Source: an uncultured Muribaculaceae bacterium (GTDB taxonomy: Bacteria; Bacteroidota; Bacteroidia; Bacteroidales; Muribaculaceae). From it: a stretch of DNA of 38,347 nucleotides. Below are positions 2,380 to 23,524 of this stretch, one piece after another. The stretch's first letter is position 1. Every line of letters begins with the position of its first letter. The DNA is taken from assembly GCA_944321905.1 (NCBI GenBank), contig CALUNI010000010.1, forward strand, positions 1 through 38,347. The letters are read 5' to 3'. The notes below the pieces were generated by a model. The model saw only the letters and a list, made by a program, of their open reading frames with translations, ran no database searches and had not been told where the DNA came from. The position numbers and the translations under genes were made by a program.

Positions 2380-4302
2380 TCAAAAGCTAAAGTGCGCCCC
2401 ACCCATGAATGTGGCACGCGGCATGGGATATCCGGCCATGACCTCATAGCGACTGGCAAGCAGATTCTCGCCCCGGGCATAAAACGTAAGCCAATCAGTG
2501 GCACGAAAGCTCACCGACAAGTCCCACAGCACGAAATCTTCCTGCGTGTCGGTTTCTATGTCGGTATATAACCCCTTCACATATTGCACACCTGTCGATG
2601 CATTCCACCGGCCAAGGCCGAAGTTCACCCCACCATACAGCTTATGCCGAGGCGAGGCAAGCACAGGATTCTCCATGTGCAACCAACTGTAATTGGCCGT
2701 CACGCTCCACATGTGATTGAGCGTCCAGTCAACAGCTGCCTCCGCGCCCCAGTTCTCAATAGGCCCGGAATTTTGGTTCAGCATCCCGCTGCCGTTTGGA
2801 TTAGGCAAGCGCATTATCAAGTTTTCGCCATTTATGTAAAACAGGTTGGCACTGTAAGTCAACCTGCCGCCAATCAGCCTCTGCGTGTATGACAGTTCAT
2901 AGCTCCACAAGCTTTCAGGCTCCAAGTCGGGATTCTGCGGTGGGAACATATACATTTCCCGTATCGTCGGATTACGGAATCCCTTGCTCGCCATTGCTTT
3001 CGCCTCGGCATCATGCGGAAGCCTGAAAGCCAGGCCGGCCTGCGGTACCACCTCGTTGCCGGTTTGTGAATGGTGGTCGATGCGCACACCGGCATCAAGC
3101 GTAAGCCACGACACTATATCTTGCCTGAAATCGACGTACCCTGCCACTTCGTCTTGAGTCTTGTCGGCCTGGGTGTCGCGAGTCCCGTCAAAATACTCGT
3201 TCCAAGCCTTGTCCCCAAAATGGAAATAATCAACACCTGCCGTGACACGGTTTCCTTGAAACAATTGCACACTCTGGTACCAAGAAATGCCAAGCATCAA
3301 GTCATTGCTGTTGAAGCGATAATCGAGCGGCTCGTCGCCGGGTCGGTATCCGTCGTTAATCCAATGGTCTCCCCAATTGACAAAAAAGCTCAGTGCTCCC
3401 GACGTGCGGTCATACCGGTTCTCGACGGCAACCGATGCCATACCGCGAGTAATGCGTTGGTCGTTGTCGATATACGGTTCGTCAACGCTGCCGGGATTAG
3501 TTGCATTAAAATGAGTCAAATTAACGTCGCCCCATAGTTTCCATTGCCGGGAAAAATCATATCCCAATTTTACATATCCTCCATACTGCTCAAATCCCAT
3601 GTTGTCGCGATGTCCGTCGGTGCGATTATATGAAGCCGTGACCGTACTCGAAAAACGTCCCTTGCGGACGCGATTCGTAGCCTCCCCTTTGAAAGATCCA
3701 TACGAGCCGCCCGACACATCGACATCGGTCTTAATTCCATCCTCGGCCATCCGCCTTGTCACGATGTTCACCACGCCACCCATGGCGTTTGAGCCGTAAA
3801 GCATCGAAGCCGGGCCGCGCACCACTTCTACCTTTTCCACCATCATCGACTGATAAGCATCGGCTATGGGATGTCCCATCAAACCCATATATTGCGGATG
3901 CCCGTCTATAAGCACAAGCAACCCCGTCGTTGGCAGACCAGCCTGCGCCGGCCCGCCAATGCCTCGCAACGACATCTGCCCCGAACCGCCTGTTGATACA
4001 CCATACCCCATGACCCCGCGAGAGGTTGAAAAGAAACCGGGCACCTGTGTGTTCAAAACAGGCAAAATCGACGACTGCCTGCTCTGTTCGATTTGCGACC
4101 TGCCGACAACAGATATCGTCATTGGCAAATGCCTTACATCTGTTTCGTTGCGCGTACCCGTAACCACCACATCCTTCATCAACACATTTCGCAAAGTGTC
4201 GCTTTGTGCCTGCACAACAAGCGCATGTGCCACAAGTACAAGCCAAAGTACACTTCTACTTTTCTCTATTGCCATTAGTATAACACGGTTAATTTTTTTC
4301 AT
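2380..4302 (-). CDS. TonB-dependent outer membrane receptor
   Basis: This 640-residue protein is a ligand-gated outer membrane transporter. After the signal peptide (predicted cut VQA|Q at residue 32/33) comes a plug domain with DVVVTGTRNETDVRHLPMTI, a MSLRGIGG segment and VEVVRGPASMLYGSNAMGGVVNIVTRR, all typical of plugs. The rest is a 22-strand-type beta barrel with aromatic-rich turns, ending in a C-terminal Phe (GGAHFSF) as outer membrane barrels do. There is no N-terminal carboxypeptidase-like extension and no SusD partner, so a BtuB/siderophore-type role is more likely than glycan uptake; the substrate is unknown. I chose Met at 4302; Met at 4275 is an alternative that keeps the signal peptide. 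Confidence 0.9.
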   Translation of the reverse strand: MKKINRVILMAIEKSRSVLWLVLVAHALVVQAQSDTLRNVLMKDVVVTGTRNETDVRHLPMTISVVGRSQIEQSRQSSILPVLNTQVPGFFSTSRGVMGYGVSTGGSGQMSLRGIGGPAQAGLPTTGLLVLIDGHPQYMGLMGHPIADAYQSMMVEKVEVVRGPASMLYGSNAMGGVVNIVTRRMAEDGIKTDVDVSGGSYGSFKGEATNRVRKGRFSSTVTASYNRTDGHRDNMGFEQYGGYVKLGYDFSRQWKLWGDVNLTHFNATNPGSVDEPYIDNDQRITRGMASVAVENRYDRTSGALSFFVNWGDHWINDGYRPGDEPLDYRFNSNDLMLGISWYQSVQLFQGNRVTAGVDYFHFGDKAWNEYFDGTRDTQADKTQDEVAGYVDFRQDIVSWLTLDAGVRIDHHSQTGNEVVPQAGLAFRLPHDAEAKAMASKGFRNPTIREMYMFPPQNPDLEPESLWSYELSYTQRLIGGRLTYSANLFYINGENLIMRLPNPNGSGMLNQNSGPIENWGAEAAVDWTLNHMWSVTANYSWLHMENPVLASPRHKLYGGVNFGLGRWNASTGVQYVKGLYTDIETDTQEDFVLWDLSVSFRATDWLTFYARGENLLASRYEVMAGYPMPRATFMGGAHFSF

Positions 4303-4306
4303 GATG

Positions 4307-4339
4307 CAAAGATAAACCAACAAAGCCGAAACAAAAGTA
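4307..4339 (-). promoter_or_regulatory. Promoter of the TonB receptor gene
   Basis: On the minus strand TATCTTTG (plus 4307-4314) is a perfect -7 box ending only 4 nt before the chosen ATG. A TTTG at plus 4332-4335 gives a short 17-nt spacer. That TTTG is part of a second -7-like box, TACTTTTG (plus 4332-4339), so two tandem starts are possible. If the proximal box is used, the message is nearly leaderless, or translation begins at the internal Met at 4275. Confidence 0.6.
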
Positions 4340-4466
4340 GATATATTACAGCACTTCCTACCTTTTTTACTTCACAAGCCATGAAGCCTTGTTTGTGCTA
4401 AACATATTTAAATTATCATAAATAATCATATATACAGGCCAACTACAAGCCTGTAAGTTATATAAT
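4340..4466. other. Divergent spacer between TonB receptor and rimP
   Basis: This AT-rich spacer has no reading frame of note. It holds a 7-bp inverted repeat, TACAGGC at 4433-4439 with GCCTGTA at 4449-4455, directly upstream of the rimP -33 element. This could be an operator or only a chance structure. Confidence 0.4.
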
Positions 4467-4498
4467 GTTGCAGATAAGGCAATAAATAAGTATATTTG
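4467..4498 (+). promoter_or_regulatory. Promoter of rimP-nusA-infB
   Basis: GTTG at 4467-4470, a 20-nt spacer, and TATATTTG at 4491-4498 match the Bacteroidetes pattern. The predicted start is near 4503, leaving a leader of about 150 nt before rimP. Confidence 0.7.
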
Positions 4499-4518
4499 CA
4501 GCAGAAAACTAAATGTTT

Positions 4519-4552
4519 TGAGGGAGGGGGCAGGCGGCTCCCTCATTTTTTT
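4519..4552 (+). terminator. Terminator-like hairpin in the rimP leader
   Basis: GAGGGAG (4520-4526) pairs with CTCCCTC (4538-4544), with a closing T-A pair, and is followed by T7 at 4546-4552. It looks like an intrinsic terminator placed about 20 nt after the predicted transcription start and 100 nt before the first gene, so it would act as an attenuator. A further A/T inverted repeat (4551-4558 with 4571-4578) overlaps the T-run and could compete with it. Confidence 0.6.
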
Positions 4553-4654
4553 AAAAAACCGTTTACTAACTTTTTTAACCCTGCCCGACACCACGGCAAG
4601 TCATTAAAAGACCCTTGGTTTTACGGCACATATATTAATACAACGTATTTCCAG

Positions 4655-5119
4655 ATGATAGACAAAGCAGCCTTGGAGAAAGTGGTCACCGACGCACTTG
4701 CCGGAAGTGACAAGTTTTTAGTCTCGGTCGAGATTTCTGCCGACAATCGCATCGTAGTCGAGATAGAACGCCGCAGCGGCAGCATCACAATCGACGACTG
4801 CGTGGAAATAAACAACTTGATTGAAGCAAATTTCGACCGCAACGTGGAAGACTATGAACTTGAAGTCGGCTCGGCAGGCTTGACCGCGCCATTCAAGATC
4901 AAAGCCCAATACGACAAAAATTGCGGCAACCCGGTAGAAGTGCTCACAAAGGATGGCAACAAGCTGCGCGGCACGTTGAAATCGGCCACCGACACCGATT
5001 TCACCATTACCATAACAAAGAAAGTTAAGCCCGAAGGTGCAAAACGCCCCATAATGGTCGAAGAAGACACAACAATCAATTACAACGATATAAAATACAC
5101 AAAAAACATCATAGACTAA
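4655..5119 (+). CDS. rimP: Ribosome maturation factor RimP
   Basis: RimP assists assembly of the 30S subunit. The 154-residue product has the usual two domains. The N-terminal alpha/beta domain includes VSVEISADNRIVVEIERRSG, IDDCVEINNLIEA and YELEVGSAGLTAPFK (family pattern YxLEVSSPGLxRP, here SAGL). The C-terminal SH3-like domain contains KLRGTLKSATDTDFTITITKK. I chose the ATG at 4655 because the longer open frame starting at 4496 runs back through the leader hairpin and has no family match. It is the first gene of the operon, 12 nt before nusA. Confidence 0.93.
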   Translation: MIDKAALEKVVTDALAGSDKFLVSVEISADNRIVVEIERRSGSITIDDCVEINNLIEANFDRNVEDYELEVGSAGLTAPFKIKAQYDKNCGNPVEVLTKDGNKLRGTLKSATDTDFTITITKKVKPEGAKRPIMVEEDTTINYNDIKYTKNIID

Positions 5120-5131
5120 TTCGAAGAAGAC

Positions 5132-6394
5132 ATGGCAAAGAAAGAGGAAGCAATCGACATGGTGGACCGGTTCTCTGAGTTTAAAGAACTGAGAAACATC
5201 GACAAGACCACAATGATAAGCGTTCTGGAAGAGTCGTTCCGCAGCGTCATAGCCAAGATGTTCGGCAGCGACGAGAACTTTGACGTAATCATGAACCCCG
5301 ACAAAGGTGACTGCGAAATCTACCAAAATCTCGAAATAGTCCCTGATGGGGCAGTGGAAAACCCCGCCAAGCAAATCAGTCTGAGCGATGCCCGCAACGA
5401 CGTGGACAACCCCGACCCCGACTGCGAGGTAGGAGAAGAACACACAAAGAAAATCGACTTTGCCAAATTTGGACGACGTGCAATCCTAAACCTGCGCCAG
5501 ACGCTTGCTAGCAAGATTCTTGACCTGCAGAAAGACGCAATCTACACCAAATTCAAGGAAATGGAAGGCGAACTTGTAACAGGCGAAGTTTACCAGTTGT
5601 GGAAAAAAGAGATATTGTTGCTCGATGATGACAAGAACGAACTGTTGTTGCCCAAGGACCAACAAATCCCGACCGACTTCTACCGAAAAGGCGATACCGT
5701 GCGAGCCGTGATCCACAACGTTGACAACAAGAACAACAATCCAAAGATAACCGTCTCACGCACAAGCGACACCTTCCTGCGCCGTCTCTTCGAACTCGAA
5801 GTTCCAGAAATACACGACGGCCTGATACTAATACGCGCCATAGCCCGCATACCGGGCGAACGTGCGAAAATCGCCGTAGAGTCGTATGACGACCGAATCG
5901 ACCCTGTGGGAGCATGCGTGGGCGTAAAAGGAGCACGCATCCACGGCATAGTACGCGAATTGCGCAACGAAAACATCGACGTGATTAATTACACCAGCAA
6001 TCCGTCGCTTTTCATACAACGCGCATTAAGCCCCGCAAAAATATCATCGATACGCATCGACGAGGAAAACAAGCACGCCGAAGTGTTCTTGAAGCCCGAG
6101 GAAGTGTCGTTGGCAATCGGCAAGGGCGGCTTGAACATACGCCTGGCCACTATGCTCACAGGATACGACATAGACGTTTACCGCGACATCGAGGATAATG
6201 AAGAAGACATCTACCTTGACGAATTCAAGGACGAAATCGACTCGTGGGTAATAGAGGCGCTGAAAGACATGGGATGCGCAACCGCCAAGGCCGTCCTTAA
6301 CACACCTCGCGAAGAACTCATAGAAAAGGCCGACCTTGAAGAAGACACCGTAGATAACGTCATCAAGGTGTTGAAAGCCGAATTTGAAAATTGA
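5132..6394 (+). CDS. nusA: Transcription termination/antitermination factor NusA
   Basis: NusA binds RNA polymerase and nascent RNA and modulates pausing, intrinsic termination and antitermination. The 420-residue protein shows the N-terminal polymerase-binding domain (to about residue 145, containing an acidic insertion around DPDCEVGEEH). An S1 domain follows (GELVTGEVYQLWKKEILLLDD). Then come KH1 with the GxxG-type loop in CVGVKGARIHGIVRELRNENIDVI, and KH2 with SLAIGKGGLNIRLA. A short acidic tail and helix-hairpin segment end the protein. It lies between rimP and infB as in many bacteria. Because NusA acts on terminators, the hairpin in this operon's own leader makes autoregulation plausible; that is inference. 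Confidence 0.95.
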   Translation: MAKKEEAIDMVDRFSEFKELRNIDKTTMISVLEESFRSVIAKMFGSDENFDVIMNPDKGDCEIYQNLEIVPDGAVENPAKQISLSDARNDVDNPDPDCEVGEEHTKKIDFAKFGRRAILNLRQTLASKILDLQKDAIYTKFKEMEGELVTGEVYQLWKKEILLLDDDKNELLLPKDQQIPTDFYRKGDTVRAVIHNVDNKNNNPKITVSRTSDTFLRRLFELEVPEIHDGLILIRAIARIPGERAKIAVESYDDRIDPVGACVGVKGARIHGIVRELRNENIDVINYTSNPSLFIQRALSPAKISSIRIDEENKHAEVFLKPEEVSLAIGKGGLNIRLATMLTGYDIDVYRDIEDNEEDIYLDEFKDEIDSWVIEALKDMGCATAKAVLNTPREELIEKADLEEDTVDNVIKVLKAEFEN

Positions 6395-6411
6395 TTTTGC
6401 TCCCGACCATA

Positions 6412-6444
6412 CGGCAGAAAGTGAAAAAGAAAGCCTTTCTGCCG
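6412..6444 (+). promoter_or_regulatory. Intercistronic hairpin between nusA and infB
   Basis: A perfect 10-bp stem, CGGCAGAAAG (6412-6421) with CTTTCTGCCG (6435-6444), has a 13-base A-rich loop. It can extend through GACC (6405-6408) and GGTC (6446-6449). No T-run follows, so it is not a standard terminator. It may be an RNA processing or stability element, or a weak pause, in the 116-nt gap before infB. No consensus promoter is obvious in the gap. Confidence 0.55.
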
Positions 6445-6510
6445 GGGTCTTCCCTCTTGATATATGGTATAATTAATGCTTCATCGTTATAACAGTTTTA
6501 ACAATCGTAT

Positions 6511-9384
6511 ATGCCCGTAAAGATAAGTAAAGTAGCAAAAGATTTGAATGTGGGGACTCAAACCATAATTGATTTCCTAAGCAAAAAAAACATCACAGTG
6601 GAATCTAATCCAAATGCCCGCATTTCTGACGAACAACACAAAATGCTGCTTGACGCATTCCGCACCGACAAAGACCAACGAATAAAATCGGACAACTTCA
6701 TCAGCGAACGGCGCCAAGAGAGAGCAAAACCTGCCCAACAGCCCAAGCAGCAACGGAAAAGCGAAAACTTCATTTCCACTGCATCTCAAATACCCACTCC
6801 AAAGATAGTGGGCAAAATCGACTTGTCTCAAGCCGGGAAACCGAAGCAAGCCATCAAACCAGAACCCGCGGCAAAGCCGGTACCACAAGAGGAAATTGCC
6901 AAGCAAGAAGAGATTGTTGCAACTCCTCAAGAGGTCGAGACTGCCACTGAAACTCAACCTCAAGCAGAGGAAAAAAATGAACAAAAGCAACCCGGGGAAC
7001 CCGAGAAAATTGAAAAAGTAGAAGAACCAAACACCGCTATGGACAACGGCAACAACGAAACCGAAGAATCTGAGAAGAAAAGTGAAGAAGAAATATTCAC
7101 CCTTGGTACTCCCACATTAAAGAACCAGCCAAAGGTTATTGGGAAAATAGACTTGTCGGCAATAAACTCGCAGACTCGTCCGAAGAAAAAGTCAAAAGAA
7201 GAAAAGCGCAAAGAACGACAAGAAAAAATGCGCCAAGAGACTTCTTCCCCCAAAAATGGCAATGGCGACAACAGCAGCGCCACTACAGGAACCGGCGACC
7301 GCAAAAAGCGCAAACGCATAGGAAAAGAAAAAATCGACATCGAGAAAAGCGTGAACTTGCTCGATTCGCAGCAGCCTAAATCGGGAAAAGGCGGCAACAA
7401 TGCCGGCAACGGCGATGAAACGTCGGGCAAAAACCGCAAAAACCGCAAAAACAAACGTCCATTCAAGACCGAGATAAGCGACGAGGACGTTCAGAAACAA
7501 GTAAAAGAGACTCTTGCCCGCCTCACGGCCAAGACTCCTAAAAAATCGGCAAAGTGGCGCAAAGAAAAACGCGAAGCCGTGGAAGAACGCGAACGCGAAG
7601 CCGCCGAACTCGAGGCACAGGAAGAAAAGACACTGAAGCTCACCGAGTTCGTTACCGTCAACGACCTCGCCGTGATGATGAACGTGCCTATCAACAAGGT
7701 GATCGGTACGTGTATGAGTTTGGGCGTAATGGTATCTATAAACCAACGTCTGGATGCCGAAACCATCAACATCGTAGCCGACGAGTTTGGATTCAAGACC
7801 GAATATGTAAGTGCCGAAGTGTCGGAAGCCATACACCACCACGACGACGAGGAAGACAAGCCCGAAGACCTTGTTCCTCGCCCGCCGGTAGTAACCGTAA
7901 TGGGACACGTGGATCATGGCAAGACATCACTGCTCGACTATATACGTAACGCCAACGTGATTGCAGGCGAAGCCGGAGGCATAACGCAGCACATCGGCGC
8001 ATACAACGTGAAACTGAAGAACGGCCAACACATCACGTTCCTCGACACCCCGGGACACGAGGCATTTACAGCTATGCGCGCACGTGGTGCCAAGATTACC
8101 GACATAGTAATCATCATTGTCGCAGCCGACGACAACGTGATGCCGCAGACCGTCGAGGCTATCAACCACGCATCGGCTGCCGGCGTACCCATAATCTTTG
8201 CAATAAACAAGATTGACAAGCCTGCGGCCAACCCCGACAAAATCAAGGAAGAGCTGGCCAACATGAATTACCTTGTAGAAGAATGGGGCGGCAAATATCA
8301 GTCGCAAGACATCTCTGCAAAGAAGGGCATCGGAGTCACCGAGTTGCTTGACAAAGTATTGCTTGAAGCCGAAATGCTCGAACTGAAAGCTAACCCCAAG
8401 CGTCGCGCAACGGGATCGATCATAGAGTCGTCGCTTGACAAGGGCCGTGGATACGTCGCTACGGTTCTCGTGCAAAACGGCACCCTAAAAGTGGGCGACA
8501 TACTGCTTGCCGGGACTCATTACGGCAAAATAAAAGCCATGTTCAACGAGCGCAACCAACGCATCACCGAGGCCGGCCCGTCGGAACCGGCATTGATACT
8601 CGGATTGAACGGCGCACCGACAGCAGGCGACAAATTCAATGTAATGGATACCGACCAAGAAGCGCGAGAGATTGCAAGCAAGCGCGAGCAGTTGCAACGC
8701 GAACTGGGATTGCGCACACAGAAGCGCGTAACGCTCGAAGACATAGGCCGCCGCAAGGCATTGGGCAGCTTCAACGAGCTCAACATCATTGTCAAAGGCG
8801 ACGTTGACGGCTCTATAGAAGCCCTCAGCGACTCGCTCATCAAGCTGTCAACGCCCGAGGTGCAAGTTAACGTAATCCACAAGGCCGTAGGCGCAATTTC
8901 AGAAAGCGACGTGACCCTTGCTGCCGCTTCCGATGCATTCATAATCGGCTTCCAGGTGCGTCCGTCACTGGCTGCCCGCCGCCTTGCCGAACGAGACGGA
9001 GTTGACATAAGGCTCTATTCGGTCATATACAAGGCCATAGAAGAGGTAAAGGCCGCCATGGAAGGACTGCTGTCGCCCGAAGTGAAGGAGGAAATCATCG
9101 GCTCGGCCGAAGTCATGCAGACCTACCACATCTCCAAGGTCGGCACCATTGCAGGAGCCATAGTGCGAGAGGGCAAGGTAAAGCGCAACTGCAAGGTACG
9201 AATCATACGCGACGGCATTGTGATATACACCGGCGAACTTGGTTCTCTCAAGCGATTCAAGGATGACGTGAAAGAAGTCACATCTGGCTTTGACTGCGGT
9301 CTGAGCGTCGCAGGCTACAACGACATCAAGGAAGGCGACTTCATTGAATCGTTTGAAGAAGTGGAAGTAAAGAAAACACTGTGA
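6511..9384 (+). CDS. infB: Translation initiation factor IF-2
   Basis: IF-2 is the GTPase that delivers initiator tRNA to the 30S subunit and promotes subunit joining. In this 957-residue product an IF2N module starts at residue 1 ([20 protein letters not shown]). A long charged linker to about residue 370 is rich in Lys, Glu and Gln. A second IF2N-like module includes [20 protein letters not shown]. The GTPase domain has G1 GHVDHGKTS at 465-473, G3 DTPGHEAF at 512-519, and G4 NKID at 566-569, followed by SAKKG. Domains II-IV follow, ending in EEVEVKKTL. The linker carries GKIDLS twice (about residues 101 and 211). Length is long, as usual for the phylum. Confidence 0.96.
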
Positions 9385-9415
9385 TTTGCACCCTTATACA
9401 AAAATAACTATTCCA

Positions 9416-9454
9416 ATGTAGAGCCGCCAACCACCATGCGGCTCTGCATTTTTG
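9416..9454 (+). terminator. Terminator of the rimP-nusA-infB operon
   Basis: A 12-bp stem (9416-9427 with 9438-9449, core AGAGCCGC/GCGGCTCT, one G-T pair) has a 10-base loop and runs into T5 at 9449-9453. It lies 31 nt after the infB stop and just before folK. The T-run itself resembles a -7 box (CATTTTTG), so it may also serve as part of a folK promoter. Confidence 0.85.
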
Positions 9455-9465
9455 CTTATTGTCCA

Positions 9466-9933
9466 ATGAATTACTATCTTAATATCGGCTCAAACATAGG
9501 CAACCGGCATAGCAACATATCACGAGCAGTAAACTTGATAAGCCGCACATTCGGCACCGAAGTGCAATGCAGCAAACCTGTGGAAAGCGAACCGTGGGGC
9601 TTCGACTCCGAAAACACATTTGTCAACGAAGGCATAGTCTTAAACACAAACCAACGCCCCGACATCGTGCTGTCGATGCTGCAAAAGGTGGAACGAAGCA
9701 TCAGCAACACGTCCCACCGCAATGCCGATGGCAGTTATCGCGACCGAATAATAGATATCGACATAGTAGCCATCGACCAGCTCACCATCGACTCGCCCAC
9801 ACTCAAAGTGCCTCATCCGCACTTTGCCGAACGCGACTTCTACCTCATTCCCATGTGCGAACTTGCCCCGTCATGGACACACCCTCGCACAAGCCTAACC
9901 CCGGGGCAGATGCTTGCTCACCTTGCCCGATAA
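9466..9933 (+). CDS. folK: 6-hydroxymethyl-7,8-dihydropterin pyrophosphokinase (HPPK)
   Basis: HPPK transfers pyrophosphate from ATP to hydroxymethyl-dihydropterin, one step before dihydropteroate synthase in folate synthesis. The 155-residue protein has the N-terminal LNIGSNIGNR, the substrate segment ESEPWGF, the Mg-binding pair in YRDRIIDIDIVAI (Asp97 and Asp99), and the family signature PHPHFAERDFYLIPMCELAP. The start was set at 9466 (MNYYLNIGSN); an in-frame ATG at 9436 would begin inside the preceding terminator. It faces the small minus-strand gene after 24 nt. folA, another folate gene, is elsewhere in the window. Confidence 0.92.
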   Translation: MNYYLNIGSNIGNRHSNISRAVNLISRTFGTEVQCSKPVESEPWGFDSENTFVNEGIVLNTNQRPDIVLSMLQKVERSISNTSHRNADGSYRDRIIDIDIVAIDQLTIDSPTLKVPHPHFAERDFYLIPMCELAPSWTHPRTSLTPGQMLAHLAR

Positions 9934-9957
9934 AGTCATAAACCACGGAGCATATGA

Positions 9958-10116
9958 CTATCGATTCTCGTCGGTCGGACGATTGGCCTTTTCTCGCTCC
10001 ATCCGCTCTTTATACGCTTTAAGCTGCTTCTTGAACAGCAACTTTTTTTGCTGCTCTTTCTTTGCCTTTCTTGCAAGATAGGCATCATATTGATTTTCAA
10101 GATAATTATCAGCCAT
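9958..10116 (-). CDS. 52-residue basic helical protein, unknown function
   Basis: A short open frame starts five bases after the stop of the SIMPL gene on the same strand, so it probably shares its transcript. The product begins MADNYLENQYDAYLARKAKK and ends RPTDENR. Almost all of its middle is Lys/Arg/Gln/Glu-rich with no helix breakers, predicting one long amphipathic or coiled-coil helix. There is no signal peptide or membrane segment. I cannot name a family. The tight spacing, clean ATG and absence of any competing gene support it as real. Confidence 0.6.
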   Translation of the reverse strand: MADNYLENQYDAYLARKAKKEQQKKLLFKKQLKAYKERMEREKANRPTDENR

Positions 10117-10121
10117 GATTT

Positions 10122-10829
10122 CTATTGTTTCAAGGAAAATCTCACACGCACAGTGGCTCGCAACGTGATGGTGCGAAAATTGTCATAACCCGCAGCCGCA
10201 TCTACCGCAATATTAGATGTTGCAACAGAGGATACGCCTTCGACCAGTCCCGCTCCGGCGGGTTCTTCAATCTGTAATACCTCGCCCACTTGCGCACCTA
10301 ACGCTTGAGCCATATATTCGGCCTTCGTTAGAGCCGACTTCAAGGCATCTACACGGCATTGCCGGCGATAGTGGTCGATAGAATCACATTCAAGATCTCC
10401 AACTCTCATATATTCCACAGCCTTCCTGTCGATACGTGTGTTTATCTTGTCAATCATCACAAAGTCGTCGAGCGTTATATCGTAACGCTTCGACACATAA
10501 AACGGTTCTCCCTCCCGTCTCCATCCATAGTCACCCACTTCCTGCAATCGCACCGCATCATCTTTTATGCCAAGTTCATAAAGATGATTACGAAATTCCT
10601 TGTCGATTTGGTCCATAGACACGCAAGACTTGAACTCCTCGGGCTTGGCCCCGTCAAATTCTTCGGCATAGTATTCCCGCAACTGCACTATATAGTGTAT
10701 CCTATCGGGGACAAGTTCTACTTGTGACACGCCATTTACCTCGATAAATCTTTGCTTGCCGCCGTCGGTGGCACAAACAGGCAGTATCGACAAAACCGCC
10801 ATTAAAATAACAATCGACGCACGTAACAT
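10122..10829 (-). CDS. SIMPL-domain (DUF541) exported protein
   Basis: This 235-residue protein has an N-terminal signal peptide (hydrophobic stretch ASIVILMAVLSILPVCA, cut probably after residue 20). It is followed by the SIMPL pattern: IEVNGVSQVELVPDRIHYIVQL, a helical and strand repeat including SKRYDITLDDFVMIDKI, ALTKAEYMAQALGAQVGEVLQIEE, and a final TITLRATVRVRFSLK strand. In other bacteria SIMPL proteins are periplasmic or outer-membrane-associated, with poorly defined roles in stress tolerance. The -7 box TACTTTTG lies 46 nt upstream of the ATG. The downstream 52-residue gene appears co-transcribed. Confidence 0.8.
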   Translation of the reverse strand: MLRASIVILMAVLSILPVCATDGGKQRFIEVNGVSQVELVPDRIHYIVQLREYYAEEFDGAKPEEFKSCVSMDQIDKEFRNHLYELGIKDDAVRLQEVGDYGWRREGEPFYVSKRYDITLDDFVMIDKINTRIDRKAVEYMRVGDLECDSIDHYRRQCRVDALKSALTKAEYMAQALGAQVGEVLQIEEPAGAGLVEGVSSVATSNIAVDAAAGYDNFRTITLRATVRVRFSLKQ

Positions 10830-10874
10830 ATTTTCCTGCTTTATTCAATCACAACACGCAACACCGCCCACAAT

Positions 10875-10882
10875 CAAAAGTA
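10875..10882 (-). promoter_or_regulatory. -7 box of the SIMPL gene
   Basis: On the minus strand TACTTTTG matches TAnnTTTG. No TTTG lies at the ideal distance; the nearest (plus 10909-10912) is 26 nt away, so the promoter is only moderately supported. Confidence 0.45.
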
Positions 10883-10938
10883 GGAAGGCGTTATATAGTT
10901 AATACTCCCAAATATACTGATTTCTTTCATTTATTTTG

Positions 10939-10946
10939 TATTTTTG
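10939..10946 (+). promoter_or_regulatory. -7 box of metG
   Basis: TATTTTTG lies 21 nt upstream of the metG ATG in a divergent arrangement with the SIMPL promoter. The -33 region is not a clear TTTG. Confidence 0.55.
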
Positions 10947-10967
10947 CACGAAATAATAAAAAACAAT

Positions 10968-13007
10968 ATGGAAAAGAAATTTGCACGTACTCTCGTTACC
11001 ACGGCATTACCCTATGCCAACGGCCCGGTACACATCGGGCACCTTGCAGGAGTGTATGTTCCTGCCGACATCTACACACGCTACCTGCGAATGAAAGGCG
11101 AGGACGTGATAATGATAGGCGGAAGCGACGAACACGGAGTGCCTATCACGCTCAAGGCTCGTGCCGAAGGCGTCAGCCCGCAAGACATCGTTGACCGCTA
11201 CCACAACATAATCAAGAAATCATTTGAGCAGCTGGGCATATCGTTCGACATATATTCGCGCACTACGAGCAAGATACATTGCCAAACGGCAAGCGACTTC
11301 TTCCGCTGCTTGTATGACAAAGGCGAGTTCATAGAAAAGACATCCCTGCAATATTACGACGAGGAAGCCAAGCAATTCCTTGCCGACCGATACATCGTGG
11401 GAACGTGTCCACACTGCGGCTACGACCACGCATATGGCGACCAATGTGAGAAATGCGGCACGTCGCTCAGTGCCAACGACCTCATAGAACCCCATTCTGC
11501 CATAACAGGAAGCAAGCCCATCAAAAAAGAGACCAAGCACTGGTACCTGCCACTTGACAAATGGGAGCCGACATTGCGCAAATGGATTCTCGAAGGACAC
11601 AAGGAGTGGAAACCAAACGTATATGGACAATGCAAGTCGTGGCTCGATCTGGGGCTGCAACCTCGTGCCGTAAGCCGAGACCTCGACTGGGGCGTGCCTG
11701 TCCCGGTTGAAGGTGCCGAGGGAAAGGTGCTTTACGTGTGGTTCGACGCGCCTATCGGATATATTTCCAATACCAAAGAGCTCTTGCCCGACCGATGGGA
11801 AGAGTATTGGAAAAGCAAAGACACACGCATAATCAATTTCATAGGCAAAGACAACATCGTGTTCCACTGCATCGTGTTCCCGGCAATGCTCATGGCCGAA
11901 GGGTCGTACCAACTACCCGAAAATGTGCCGGCCAACGAATTCCTAAACCTTGAAGGCGACAAGATATCCACGTCGCGCAACTGGGCCGTGTGGTTACACG
12001 AGTACCTTGTAGAATTCCCGGGCAAGCAAGATGTGCTGCGATACGTGCTAACGGCAAACGCACCCGAGACCAAGGACAACGACTTCACCTGGAAAGACTT
12101 CCAAGCCCGCAACAACAACGAGCTTGTAGCCATACTCGGAAATTTTGTCAACCGCTCGATAGTGCTGACACACAAATATTTCGAGGGCAAGATACCGGCA
12201 ATGGGAGAACTTACCGACTATGACCGGCAGACGCTCGACGAATTCAAGAACGTAAAAGAGACTCTTGGCAACAACATAGAGCACTTCCGCTTCCGCGACG
12301 CTCTGCGCGATGCCATGAACCTTGCCCGGATAGGCAACAAATACCTCGCCGACACCGAGCCTTGGAAGCTTGCAAAGACCGACATGGCACGCGTGGCTAC
12401 AATATTGAACATGGCCATGCAAATCACAGCCAACCTTGCCATAGCATTTGAACCGTTCTTGCCTTTCTCGGCCGAGAAACTACGCAAGATGATTAACATG
12501 CCTGAAGCCGACTGGAACAAACTGGGCAGCATCGACATTCTTGCCGCAGGCAAGCCCGTAGAAAAGCCCGAGCTGCTGTTTGAAAAAATCGAAGACTCGG
12601 TAATCGATGCCCAGATACAGAAATTGGAACGAATCAAGCAAGAAAACATAATCAAGAACTTCCATGCCGAACCTATCGCGCCAACAGTGTCAATAGACGA
12701 TTTTGGCAAACTCGACATTAGGATAGGCAAAGTCATCGATTGCCAGAAAGTTCCAAAGGCCGACAAGCTATTGCAATTCAAAATCGACGACGGACTGGGC
12801 GGACGCACAATCGTAAGCGGCATAGCCAAATACTATGCACCCGAAGACTTGATAGGGAAAGAAGTGTGCTTCATTGCAAATCTTGCTCCACGCAAACTCA
12901 AAGGCATAGAATCGCAGGGCATGATACTTAGCGCAGAGGATGCCGGCGGCAAACTTGTCGTAATCGGACCTCAAGGCGAAGTAAAACCCGGCTGCCAAGT
13001 AAAATAA
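10968..13007 (+). CDS. metG: Methionyl-tRNA synthetase
   Basis: The enzyme charges tRNA-Met with methionine. The 679-residue product is a long class I MetRS. The HIGH motif is at 22-25 (PVHIGHLAG). A zinc knuckle has Cys147, Cys150, Cys160 and Cys163. The KMSKS-type loop reads KISTS at 332-336, followed by RNWAVW. The anticodon-binding helical domain comes next, and a C-terminal EMAP/Trbp111-type tRNA-binding domain spans about 575-679 ([14 protein letters not shown]). I chose the ATG at 10968 ([19 protein letters not shown]); the frame extends to 10944, but that start lies inside the -7 box. ldcA follows after 7 nt, so the two are probably co-transcribed. Confidence 0.96.
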
Positions 13008-13014
13008 CCGACAT

Positions 13015-13914
13015 ATGGTATTTCCAAAACCATTAACCACCGGCGACAAGGTAGCAATCTTGTCGCCGGCTTCTTATATAGACCCGGCACGTGTCGATGG
13101 CGCGGCAAAAGTACTCGGAGAATGGGGCTTCGACCCTGTCGTTTGTCCTCACTGCAAAGGCGTAAACGGCAGTTACAGCGGCACGGTAGAAGAACGCCTT
13201 TCCGACCTGCTATGGGCTTTGGCCGAGCCGTCGGTTCGTGCCATATTGTGTAGTCGCGGAGGATATGGAACCATACACCTGCTACAGCATGTCGCCCCGT
13301 CCACCCTTCGCCGCGATCCAAAGTGGATTATAGGATTCAGCGACATATCGGCACTTCATGCAATGTCGATAAGCTCGGGCATAGCAAGCATCCATGCTTC
13401 GATGGCAAAACACCTCGCCGAGCATGGGAGCAAAGATGCTTGCAACCAATTATTGCTTAATGCCCTACAAGGAGTATTGCCATGCTACAAGTTTCCGTTC
13501 CATCCACTTAACCGCGACGGAGAAGCATCGGGAACTGTAGTCGGCGGGAACCTTGCCGTGCTTTGCGGACTGGTTTCCACTCCATACGATATACTCAAGC
13601 CAGGGCGCATACTGTTTATCGAAGATATTGCCGAAGAAATATACCGGGTCGAACGCATGCTATACACGCTGAGACTGAATGGGACGTTGGCCAATCTCCG
13701 CGGCCTCATCGTAGGACAATTTACCGACTACCGCAACCATGAGCGCAACGGAGAAACAATGGAACATATGATTAGACGCATGGTCGAACCGTTTGACTAC
13801 CCGGTGGCAATGGGATGCCCCATAGGCCATATCAACGGAAACATACCCATGATAGAAGGCGCACGAGCCACGTTATCGGTCGCACACGGCACAACCACGC
13901 TCAAATTCATATAA
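13015..13914 (+). CDS. LD-carboxypeptidase, S66 family
   Basis: S66 enzymes cleave the L,D bond of murein tetrapeptides during peptidoglycan recycling, releasing the terminal D-Ala. The 299-residue protein has SRGGYGT at 80-86, the nucleophile region GFSD with Ser109, FIEDIAEE with Glu203, and GHINGN with His272, which together match the family's Ser-Glu-His triad. There is no signal peptide, consistent with a cytoplasmic LdcA-type role. It follows metG by 7 nt. The stop at 13914 abuts the A-rich side of a terminator that serves the opposite strand. Confidence 0.88.
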   Translation: MVFPKPLTTGDKVAILSPASYIDPARVDGAAKVLGEWGFDPVVCPHCKGVNGSYSGTVEERLSDLLWALAEPSVRAILCSRGGYGTIHLLQHVAPSTLRRDPKWIIGFSDISALHAMSISSGIASIHASMAKHLAEHGSKDACNQLLLNALQGVLPCYKFPFHPLNRDGEASGTVVGGNLAVLCGLVSTPYDILKPGRILFIEDIAEEIYRVERMLYTLRLNGTLANLRGLIVGQFTDYRNHERNGETMEHMIRRMVEPFDYPVAMGCPIGHINGNIPMIEGARATLSVAHGTTTLKFI

Positions 13915-13955
13915 AAGAAAAACAGGCAATGTCGAAATCACTTCGAGGTTGCCTG
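13913..13955 (-). terminator. Strong minus-strand terminator ending an orphan transcript
   Basis: Read on the minus strand, CAGGCAA (plus 13949-13955) and TTGCCTG (plus 13923-13929) enclose an inner stem of TCGAA with TTCGA. The hairpin is followed directly by TTTTTCTTTT (plus 13913-13922). On the plus strand no T-run follows, so the structure is oriented for minus-strand transcription, although it sits just after ldcA. Confidence 0.85.
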
Positions 13956-14041
13956 CCTACGTTTCATCAAGTTTAGTGCAAATTCATCTGTGTGTACGTA
14001 TGATGTTGAGTCTGAGAAGTCGAGTCTAAATCGAATCTGCT

Positions 14042-14134
14042 TTATGATGAGTGCTGATAATAATTTCGGTGTTTATTTAGTTTAACTGTATATTTTCCAA
14101 GTGGTGTTTCGTTTGAAAAACAGCCACAAGTCAT
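14042..14134 (-). CDS. Possible 30-residue peptide inside the orphan transcript
   Basis: The longest ATG frame in the transcript encodes 30 residues, beginning MTCGCFSNETPLGKY and ending NYYQHSS. The same frame is open without a stop for 18 further codons upstream, to the predicted transcription start. A GTG at 14156-14158 would give a 38-residue product starting (fMet)QGDEKDY. The composition (two Cys, many Asn, Lys and Tyr, no signal or membrane segment) looks protein-like but does not prove translation. I recognise no family. It may be a chance frame in a noncoding RNA. Confidence 0.35.
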   Translation of the reverse strand: MTCGCFSNETPLGKYTVKLNKHRNYYQHSS

Positions 14135-14189
14135 GTAGTCCTTTTCATCGCCTTGCACCGCATATGCGGTACTCAGCCTTTTCTGACCT

Positions 14190-14221
14190 CAAAAGTATGA
14201 AAAATGCTACTATTCTGCAAA
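14190..14221 (-). promoter_or_regulatory. Promoter of the orphan minus-strand transcript
   Basis: On the minus strand TTTG (plus 14218-14221), exactly 20 nt, then TACTTTTG (plus 14190-14197). This is as good a match to the Bacteroidetes consensus as any promoter in the window, yet it reads into a region with no recognised gene. Confidence 0.7.
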
Positions 14222-14380
14222 TATTCTCTACTATTTTTCATTGTTTCTAAAAATTTATGTCCATTTAGAGCCTTTCTCGATTCTAAATACGGTATTTTAT
14301 GGCTCCATTTCAAGTCCACCCGGCAACATACCCGAAAACCGATGCCCGTGATTGCTCACATACCATGGCGTAAACTACAA
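14222..14380. other. Spacer upstream of the pseudouridine synthase gene
   Basis: I see no gene, repeat or strong structure in this divergent spacer. The only small symmetry is AAATA/TATTT around 14285-14297. Confidence 0.4.
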
Positions 14381-14412
14381 TTTGCCAGTAAGATTTGCAT
14401 GTATTAACTTTG
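14381..14412 (+). promoter_or_regulatory. Promoter of the RluA-family gene
   Basis: TTTG at 14381-14384, a 20-nt spacer, and TAACTTTG at 14405-14412 match the consensus. The ATG is at 14429, giving a leader of about 12 nt. Confidence 0.75.
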
Positions 14413-14428
14413 CATAAAAATTAAAATT

Positions 14429-15382
14429 ATGAGACAAGCAAACATCAACGACGAGGAGCACAAGAAGCTACGCCCCGACAATATCAAATCATGGACAGCT
14501 CCCGAAGACGGGACTATCCTAAGCACTGCGACAAAAATATTGTCGGACCACACTGCGACAAAAATCAAATCGATGCTTAAGCACAACCAGTTTGCCATAA
14601 ACTATGTACCCCACACACAGTTTGATTTTCCTGTGTCAAAAGGCGACAAATTTTCGGTAAACTTCGACAGGTCGTTTGTCGTGTTCAACAACCGCCGCAT
14701 AGAACTCGTATATGAAGACGAAGACATACTCGTAATAAACAAAGGATACGGGCTGCTATCGATGGGTACAGATAAAATAAAGGATGGAACAGCCTACAGC
14801 ATAATGCGCGAATACGTAAAATCCCACAACCCCAAGTCTCAAGTATTCATCGTACACCGCCTCGACCGCGACACTTCGGGACTTATGATGATCGCCAAGA
14901 CACCCGAGGCCAAAGAAACTATGCAACATAACTGGAACAACATGGTGATAAACCGCAAATATGTGGCAGTGGTAGAGGGCCAAATGGAAAACGAGGAAGG
15001 CGTGGTGAGAAGCTATCTTGCCGAAAATTCACAATTTGAGGTGTACTCGACAAACGACCCGCAAAAAGGCCAACTTGCCATAACTCGTTACAAGACTCTC
15101 AAAGTGGGGAACTTGTATTCTCTCGTAGAATATGAACTCGACACCGGCAGAAAAAATCAAATACGCGTACATTCCAAGGAGATGGGACATCCGATAGTGG
15201 GAGACCGCAAATACGGAGCAGCCACCAGCCCCATCCACCGGTTAGCATTACATGCAATGACGCTGCGGTTTGTACATCCTATAACTCGGAAAGAAATGAA
15301 CTTTTCAACCCCGATTCCGCCAAGTTTCTTAAAATTAGTACATTATAGATATCCGGCAAAAAAAGCGTCAAAAGAGATGTAA
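14429..15382 (+). CDS. RluA/RluD-family pseudouridine synthase
   Basis: These enzymes convert uridine to pseudouridine in rRNA or tRNA. The 317-residue protein has the family signature HRLDRDTSG at 143-151 with the catalytic Asp146. Before it, ILVINKGYGLLSMG is the usual motif leading into the catalytic domain. Later segments are NRKYVAVVEG and the conserved YSLVEYELDTGRKNQIRVH, with RLALHAMTLRFVHP near the C-terminus. Residues 28-80 resemble a weak S4-like RNA-binding domain (TILSTATKILSDHTATKIKSML). The substrate position cannot be assigned. Its terminator lies inside the 3' end of the convergent folA gene. Confidence 0.85.
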   Translation: MRQANINDEEHKKLRPDNIKSWTAPEDGTILSTATKILSDHTATKIKSMLKHNQFAINYVPHTQFDFPVSKGDKFSVNFDRSFVVFNNRRIELVYEDEDILVINKGYGLLSMGTDKIKDGTAYSIMREYVKSHNPKSQVFIVHRLDRDTSGLMMIAKTPEAKETMQHNWNNMVINRKYVAVVEGQMENEEGVVRSYLAENSQFEVYSTNDPQKGQLAITRYKTLKVGNLYSLVEYELDTGRKNQIRVHSKEMGHPIVGDRKYGAATSPIHRLALHAMTLRFVHPITRKEMNFSTPIPPSFLKLVHYRYPAKKASKEM

Positions 15383-15386
15383 CACC

Positions 15387-15887
15387 CTATCTGCTGCGCT
15401 TCAAGTATAAAAAACTATATGGAAAAGGATTACGCTCATCGGCAGCGTAATCTTCTTTTTTTATAATATCCCACTCACCGGCATCTGCCATGGGAAAGAA
15501 AGTATCGGCATTGTCAAATCGGGCATGTATCCGTGTCAGATACAATTCATCCAAATATCCGGCAAAAGCCGCATATATCTGTCCGCCGCCTATTACGAAA
15601 CATCGCTCACGCCCTTCGGCCTCGGCAATGGATATGGCCTCGGCAATCTCATGGCACACCACCGCTCCCGTCGCGGCATATGACGCATCACGAGTCAAAA
15701 TAATATTCAACCTTCCCGGCAACGGTCCCTTCGGAAAGCTCTCAAATGTCTTACGTCCCATTATAATGGGATAACCCATCGTGACCGACTTGAAATGTTT
15801 CAAATCGGCCGGCATATGGCACAGCAGTCCCCCTTTGCGCCCAATTCCGTCGGCCTCGTCAACTGCCACTATTGCTGCGATTTTCAT
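15387..15887 (-). CDS. folA: Dihydrofolate reductase
   Basis: DHFR reduces dihydrofolate to tetrahydrofolate with NADPH. The 166-residue protein starts MKIAAIVAVDEADGIGRKGGLL, then PADLKHFKSVTMG, the cofactor-binding PIIMGRKTFESFPKGPLPGR, FVIGGGQIYAAF, and the C-terminal strand DELYLTRIHARFDNADTFFP. All core motifs are present. At the position of E. coli Trp22 (motif W-x-LP) the protein has Cys (LLCHMPADL). It is convergent with the RluA-type gene (4-nt gap) and lies 41 nt downstream of the AAA-ATPase gene on the same strand. No clear promoter was found in that gap, so it could be read through or have a weak promoter of its own. Confidence 0.93.
   Translation of the reverse strand: MKIAAIVAVDEADGIGRKGGLLCHMPADLKHFKSVTMGYPIIMGRKTFESFPKGPLPGRLNIILTRDASYAATGAVVCHEIAEAISIAEAEGRERCFVIGGGQIYAAFAGYLDELYLTRIHARFDNADTFFPMADAGEWDIIKKEDYAADERNPFPYSFLYLKRSR
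15428..15462 (+). terminator. Terminator of the RluA-family gene, inside folA
   Basis: GATTACGCT (15428-15436) pairs perfectly with AGCGTAATC (15444-15452), loop 7 nt, followed by TTCT7 (15453-15462). It is oriented for plus-strand transcription and lies within the 3' coding end of folA, where the same bases encode EDYAADERN in antisense. Confidence 0.75.
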
Positions 15888-23041: not shown

Positions 23042-23062
23042 CACCAAAAATGCCTATTTTTG
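23031..23062 (+). promoter_or_regulatory. Promoter of sufE
   Basis: GTTG at 23031-23034, a 20-nt spacer, and TATTTTTG at 23055-23062. The ATG is at 23081, giving a leader of about 12 nt. Confidence 0.7.
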
Positions 23063-23080
23063 AGCAATTTATTATACGAC

Positions 23081-23524
23081 ATGAAATCAATTAACGAAAT
23101 ACAAGACGAAATCATAGAAGAATTTGAGGGTCTCACCGAATGGATGGACCGATACAGCTACATCATCGACCTCGGCAACGCCCTTGAACCCATAGACGAA
23201 AAGTACAAGACCCCCGAATACCTTATTGAAGGATGCCAAAGCCGGGTGTGGATTACCGCCGACGAAGACAGTGACGGGCTGATTCACTTCAAGGCCGACA
23301 GCGACGCAATCATCGTGAAGGGCATTATATCGCTGCTCATACAGGTGCTTTCGGGCCATACGGCACAAGAAATACTCGACAGCGACCTATACTTCATAAA
23401 AAAAGTAGGACTACAGGAACACCTGTCGCCAACACGCAGCAACGGACTCGTGGCAATGGTAAAGCAAATGCGAATGTATGCCATGGCATTCCACGCCAAA
23501 GATAAAACCGACAACAAACAATAA
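23081..23524 (+). CDS. sufE: SufE family sulfur acceptor
   Basis: SufE accepts persulfide sulfur from the cysteine desulfurase SufS and passes it to the Suf scaffold for iron-sulfur cluster assembly. The 147-residue protein has the family layout: an N-terminal helix INEIQDEIIEEFEGLTEWMDRYSYIIDLG, then YLIEGCQSRVWI with the sulfur-accepting Cys52, then HFKADSDAIIVKGIISLLIQVLSG, and SPTRSNGLVAMVKQMRMYA near the C-terminus. I chose the ATG at 23081; an upstream TTG lies in the promoter. No other suf genes are in the window. The peptide transporter gene follows after 32 nt. Confidence 0.92.
   Translation: MKSINEIQDEIIEEFEGLTEWMDRYSYIIDLGNALEPIDEKYKTPEYLIEGCQSRVWITADEDSDGLIHFKADSDAIIVKGIISLLIQVLSGHTAQEILDSDLYFIKKVGLQEHLSPTRSNGLVAMVKQMRMYAMAFHAKDKTDNKQ

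Follow-up and report, generated by a model that had tools for sequence, protein, structure and literature searches.

Small RNAs have already been mapped in Bacteroides, and 6S RNA, which is near 200 nt in length, is an intergenic RNA. A study on Bacteroides describes intergenic sRNAs that possess a transcription start site (TSS) and an intrinsic terminator of their own, and presents GibS (BTnc035) of Bacteroides thetaiotaomicron as an sRNA of about 145 nt with a 5' seed (PMC7366714). The locus described here lies in a stretch of 38,347 nt (contig CALUNI010000010.1, hereafter the window) from an uncultured Muribaculaceae bacterium, and it shows by sequence what characterizes intergenic sRNAs: a promoter of its own in an intergenic region, an intrinsic terminator of its own, and an RNA whose conservation does not extend to a reading frame, apart from a very short one discussed below. 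We consider it fairly probable that this is an autonomous small non-coding RNA gene (~200-315 nt) of one Bacteroidales genus, which would act in trans by base-pairing.

The proposed transcription unit and its conservation

The candidate lies on the minus strand of a 514-nt gap between an LD-carboxypeptidase-like gene (13015-13914) and an RluA-like gene (14429-15382). The initial annotation had called this gap the largest gene-free stretch, which holds only if an ORF of 154 codons (23060-23524) is itself a gene, its gap measuring 582 nt against 514. The minus-strand layout it described, consisting of TTTG-N20-TACTTTTG, about 270 nt, a hairpin and a T-run, was recovered in every element when the letters were read directly: TTTG occupies 14221-14218 and is followed by 20 nt and by TACTTTTG at 14197-14190 (the promoter, 14190-14221, is of Bacteroidota type with a conserved spacer), and the terminator hairpin extends from 13957 to 13921, with the T-run reaching 13913. 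With the start placed from the promoter, sequence comparison assigns 13913-14185 (minus strand, ~270 nt) to the candidate small RNA gene in the window, and the length from assumed start to terminator is 198-315 nt among eight species. A scanner for E. coli-type promoters and simple hairpins returned none of either in the gap; it relies on other hexamers and needs an uninterrupted stem with a loop of 3-8 nt.

The promoter consensus matches that of the main Bacteroides fragilis sigma factor as given in the Bacteroides study (PMC7366714). The pattern TTTG-N18..22-TANNTTTG occurs nine times in the window against a mean of 0.93 and a largest value of 6 in 100 dinucleotide shuffles. With up to 3 mismatches, the unit's promoter is found once per genome in eight of the nine genomes of the genus (the window's genome and G001-G008) and is absent from G002, and the reversed control of the pattern gave 0 matches in the same nine. 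The conserved promoter block includes the spacer and extends 19 bp upstream of the -33 box; the rluA promoter of the relatives, compared by eye as a control, has little in common beyond the -7 region, and its spacer is not conserved. Over the promoter lies a direct repeat: a distal AATAGTAG upstream of the -33 box (14228-14235, minus strand) and a proximal AATAGTAG inside the spacer (14214-14207) are 21 bp apart in the window, and every one of the eight homologues has related words at these positions; the distal half reads A-A-T/C-A-G/A-T in each and lies 21 bp from the proximal one. No other promoter of the genus genomes carries this 21-bp-spaced repeat at the stringency searched, and we regard it as probably a site for a putative dedicated regulator.

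The unit recurs in the window's genome, in G001 and in G003-G008. In a DNA search of 61 genomes, 18 reached E <=0.01: the window's own genome, seven of the eight other genomes of the genus, each with a best E of at most 7.4e-18, and ten others whose matches are all short (E 0.001-0.0093), which we take as chance, two of these places having been read. G002 gave no match by DNA search or promoter pattern, and a closer look there gave only E 5.2; the rluA tree is compatible with a loss of the unit in G002 as well as with its original absence. In 84,980 species genomes a pattern of 28 bases, 24 of them fixed, matched seven records, of which one is Candidatus Avimuribaculum pullicola, four are uncultured Muribaculaceae and two are uncultured Bacteroidales. 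In the NCBI taxonomy the genus stands under Bacteroidales incertae sedis.

Identity to the window, with gaps counted as differences and block borders set by hand from the alignment, is 15-24% in the upstream flank (14330-14241), 78-88% in the promoter block (14240-14190), 20-35% in the 5' half of the transcript (14185-14066), 71-84% in the 3' block (14061-13921) and 13-27% beyond the terminator (13912-13880). At the fourfold sites of rluA, identity is 36-45% for the seven relatives having the unit and 35% for G002. The values of the two blocks, set against those of the flanks, the 5' half and the fourfold sites, mark the promoter block and the 3' RNA block as being under strong purifying selection: in the aligned sequences the surrounding DNA drifts, but promoter, 3' block and terminator persist. 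The initial annotation had suggested a complete minus-strand transcription unit, possibly a regulatory RNA, and had proposed to judge it by the conservation of promoter and terminator in close relatives. Both are kept in eight of the nine genus genomes, as is the 3' block, and the terminator stem has undergone compensatory changes, so that this part of the proposal gains considerably. Conservation in the relatives is the decisive support for reading the minus-strand unit as very probably a real gene.

Predicted structure and the conserved loop

The conserved 3' block (13913-14061, minus strand), which is the basis of model R1, comprises clamp stem, loop and terminator, and its consensus structure consists of two 8-pair clamp helices and a 14-pair terminator stem. 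The outer clamp helix (5' arm 14042-14051, paired with 13963-13970; 8 pairs, two bases bulged in the window) is almost invariant, with 98.4% of cells paired and its first pair broken in the window. The inner helix (5' arm GCAGATTC, 14033-14040, paired with GAATTTGC, 13978-13985) is 100% paired, with one pair varying between G-U and A-U. The intrinsic terminator (13913-13957, minus strand) is a 14-pair hairpin with a GUGAU apical loop, followed by the T-run. Altogether 99.6% of 240 pair cells stand, and slid versions of the structure are 25-52% paired. Cells changed on both sides number 9 against a shuffled mean of 2.4, a value reached in none of 500 shuffles; by a weaker measure, four pairs are changed on both sides against a mean of 1.7 (5 of 500 as high), and the further pair types (11 against 9.3; 65 of 500 as high) are not notable. 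The compensatory base changes which had been named as evidence for a structured RNA are present, and all four covarying pairs belong to the terminator stem, while the clamp is nearly invariant; the predicted clamp stem is consistent with the alignment but unproven. Folding of the window's transcript gave z -2.72 relative to shuffles, with 4 of 200 shuffles at least as good.

The apical stem-loop CG..GUGAU..CG (13933-13945 in the window) also occurs in hairpins elsewhere in the family, at loci L034, L036, L037, L038 and L121, a biased sample inasmuch as these hairpins were selected by the model, and terminators of the family may favour this loop.

The 5' part of the transcript does not align, and a hairpin is predicted there, without a shuffle control, in all eight species. 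In the window this predicted hairpin (14155-14172, minus strand) includes the 14-bp palindrome ACCGCATATGCGGT (14170-14157), which the initial annotation had noticed near the 5' end. The folding predictions identify the palindrome as the window's version of a 5' hairpin whose letters vary between species.

The loop held by the predicted clamp (AGACTCGACTTCTCAGACTCAAC, 14005-14027, minus strand), delimited by alignment and folding prediction, is our proposed seed. It is nearly invariant across the homologues, though its final portion is missing from G004, and all eight predictions leave it mostly unpaired (unpaired probability averaging 0.68-0.95 over 24 nt). The motif AGACUCRAC is present in two exact copies in the window, G005, G006 and G001, and in one copy in the other four. 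Searches for complements of the loop gave little: a 15-mer complement with 1 mismatch found the gene itself in seven of nine genomes and one other place, and among 26 start regions in the window none stood out as a target (best z -1.38), short seeds being hard to judge in this way. A 13-mer complement with at most 1 mismatch occurs at 17 places outside the gene in the nine genus genomes, against 5 for the reversed control; apart from one place common to the close pair G005 and G006, no gene was shared among the 10 of the 17 places that were read, which leaves a weak excess over the control.

Conservation of the whole loop, together with the lack of a shared target in the complement searches, would also suit an RNA that binds an RNA-binding protein or the polymerase instead of mRNAs, for which CsrB and 6S RNA are the models. 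We regard such a protein-binding or sponge function as unlikely, though it is the strongest competitor, in view of a loop motif that is present in at most two copies and doubled exactly in only four of eight homologues, of predictions lacking the long bulged hairpin of 6S RNA, and of the absence of any Rfam family at threshold. Putative pairing of the loop with mRNAs in trans is the reading that we prefer, and the layout of the unit suits a trans-acting sRNA.

Reading frames and genomic neighbours

The initial annotation had also allowed for a small protein, alone or together with an RNA. Its codon counts are correct: a frame is open for 48 codons behind a TGA that lies within the -7 box, or for 47 if counted from 14185, and for 30 from the ATG at 14134. 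The 30-codon ORF (14042-14134, minus strand) is not conserved, the 30-aa ATG frame being present in one of eight homologues; other ATG frames, of 39 aa in G003, 37 in G004, 27 in G007 and 24 in G008, do not match one another. Since none of the frames persists in all eight homologues, a conserved 30-aa peptide was rejected. The frame open from the assumed start spans 39-54 codons in six of the eight, and it breaks off after only 2 codons in G001 and 12 in G008; no ATG start within it is common to the species, and by eye it enters different frames of the conserved block in the close pair G005/G006. Many gaps in the conserved block have lengths not divisible by three. The frame open from the start, interrupted in two species and shifting between others, gives the suggestion of a small protein no support.

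There is one short frame of wider occurrence, nine codons (MKRR....K) lying over the terminator stem at 13938-13967 (minus strand), which is found in seven of the eight homologues, as MKQR in G004, and whose fourth-codon arginine is kept via AGG, AGA and CGA. In G008 a deletion and the loss of the stop disrupt it, most of its variable codons coincide with paired terminator positions, and the terminator stem explains most of its variation. That either this frame or the longer one is translated, making the locus a peptide or dual-function gene, is a reading to which the arginine-preserving changes and the open frame in six species lend something, but the breaks in G001 and G008, the shifts between species and the mismatched ATG frames make it very improbable.

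In six of the eight genomes (G003-G008) the unit follows a TonB-dependent-receptor-like gene on the same strand. The window's genome has its receptor-like gene (2380-4323) 10 kb away, with no such unit beside it, and in G001 unit and receptor-like gene are on separate contigs, the unit adjoining a tRNA-Leu. The genes past the terminator vary by species and include MATE-, FBPase-, radical-SAM- and ThiF-like genes as well as a tRNA-Arg and an EamA-like gene. A comparison of positions 2380-15887 of the window with G008 shows rluA and a DHFR-like gene inverted as a pair, and the sRNA separated from the receptor gene.

The position behind the receptor gene in six genomes could indicate a 3'-UTR-derived or cis-acting element of that neighbour, or else an antisense partner of a convergent neighbour. 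We hold this to be about as improbable as the peptide: the unit has its own conserved promoter, both the window's genome and G001 have kept the receptor gene with no such unit behind it, and the next gene downstream changes from species to species. With differing neighbours and a receptor link that is missing in two genomes, the unit is, on the compared sequences, a gene of its own that stands alone. A chance meeting of promoter and terminator in a gap without any gene can practically be dismissed: among 2000 shuffled versions of the 514-nt gap, 3.3% do contain the promoter pattern alone, TTTG-N18..22-TANNTTTG, but the unit is conserved far above fourfold sites in seven other species.

Range, proposed function and comparison with known systems

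For the unit, no family of Rfam 15 reached its gathering score, tRNA being the only match elsewhere in the window; at E up to 5 there were three chance-level matches only (E 1.9-4.4), which lie far under the gathering scores, and a 6S-Flavo search found no match in any control genome either and so carries no weight. Model R1 was made from seven of the eight rows, G006, which is near-identical to G005, being omitted; matches within the genus occur by construction because R1 was built from those rows, and presence there rests on the DNA and promoter searches. In 297 genomes of the family, searched with stricter filters and 10 candidates scored per genome, R1 found 16 at E 0.01 or better, eight of which are genus members (151-178 bits) and eight are not (best scores 29.8-41.8 bits, formal E 1.8e-5 in G031 to 0.008). 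Five of the latter matches were read and L038 was seen as an alignment only, L039 and L041 being left out. Those seen were rejected as homologues by eye, since they resemble terminators behind other sequence or, at L040, the end of a coding frame, and no promoter block was seen in any of the six. A more sensitive search of seven sister-genus genomes gave matches in four at E up to 10; the best (0.036, G012), which was the one read, is a terminator behind a receptor-like ORF and was likewise rejected. Viral contigs held no exact match. We thus see nothing convincing outside the genus, though weak distant homologues may have been missed, and the unit is very probably a genus-specific sRNA gene with no Rfam 15 match at threshold. 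Among the papers listed in literature searches there was no sRNA study of Muribaculaceae or Avimuribaculum, which is weak evidence of absence. In three sister-genus genomes, G015, G010 and G011, rluA (L115, L116, L118) shows in-frame stops in or at the matched stretch.

Under the preferred reading as a trans-acting sRNA, a sigma-ABfr-type polymerase would start near 14185, and a dedicated regulator would bind the AATAGTAG direct repeat that overlaps the promoter. The folded RNA would consist of a 5' hairpin, a clamp stem in two parts that presents the mostly single-stranded conserved loop, and the terminator; the loop could then pair in trans with short complementary stretches of mRNAs and alter their translation or stability. 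A more far-reaching possibility, which we put forward tentatively, is a regulatory hub private to the genus: a single-copy sRNA with a clamped seed loop, which half of the species have in doubled form, that would be switched by its own dimeric transcription factor via the 21-bp-spaced direct repeat and would still be selected after a chromosomal move. The candidate is well delimited and strongly conserved, and its structure, loop and promoter-proximal site give testable predictions.

Among known systems, riboswitches and leader attenuators resemble the unit as structured elements with a terminal terminator, but here no constant gene follows downstream on the same strand and no Rfam family matches at threshold. 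The unit is similar to 6S RNA in size and intergenic position, but its predictions lack a long bulged hairpin and it has no Rfam match at threshold. In GibS the seed is 5', whereas conservation in the present unit falls on the 3' block, a loop on a predicted clamp is the presumed seed, and the 5' part varies. Both are nevertheless conserved within a genus and have a single-stranded conserved segment as (here presumed) seed, and by its layout, as a free-standing intergenic gene with a TSS and an intrinsic terminator, the unit is like GibS and the other intergenic sRNAs of Bacteroides (PMC7366714).
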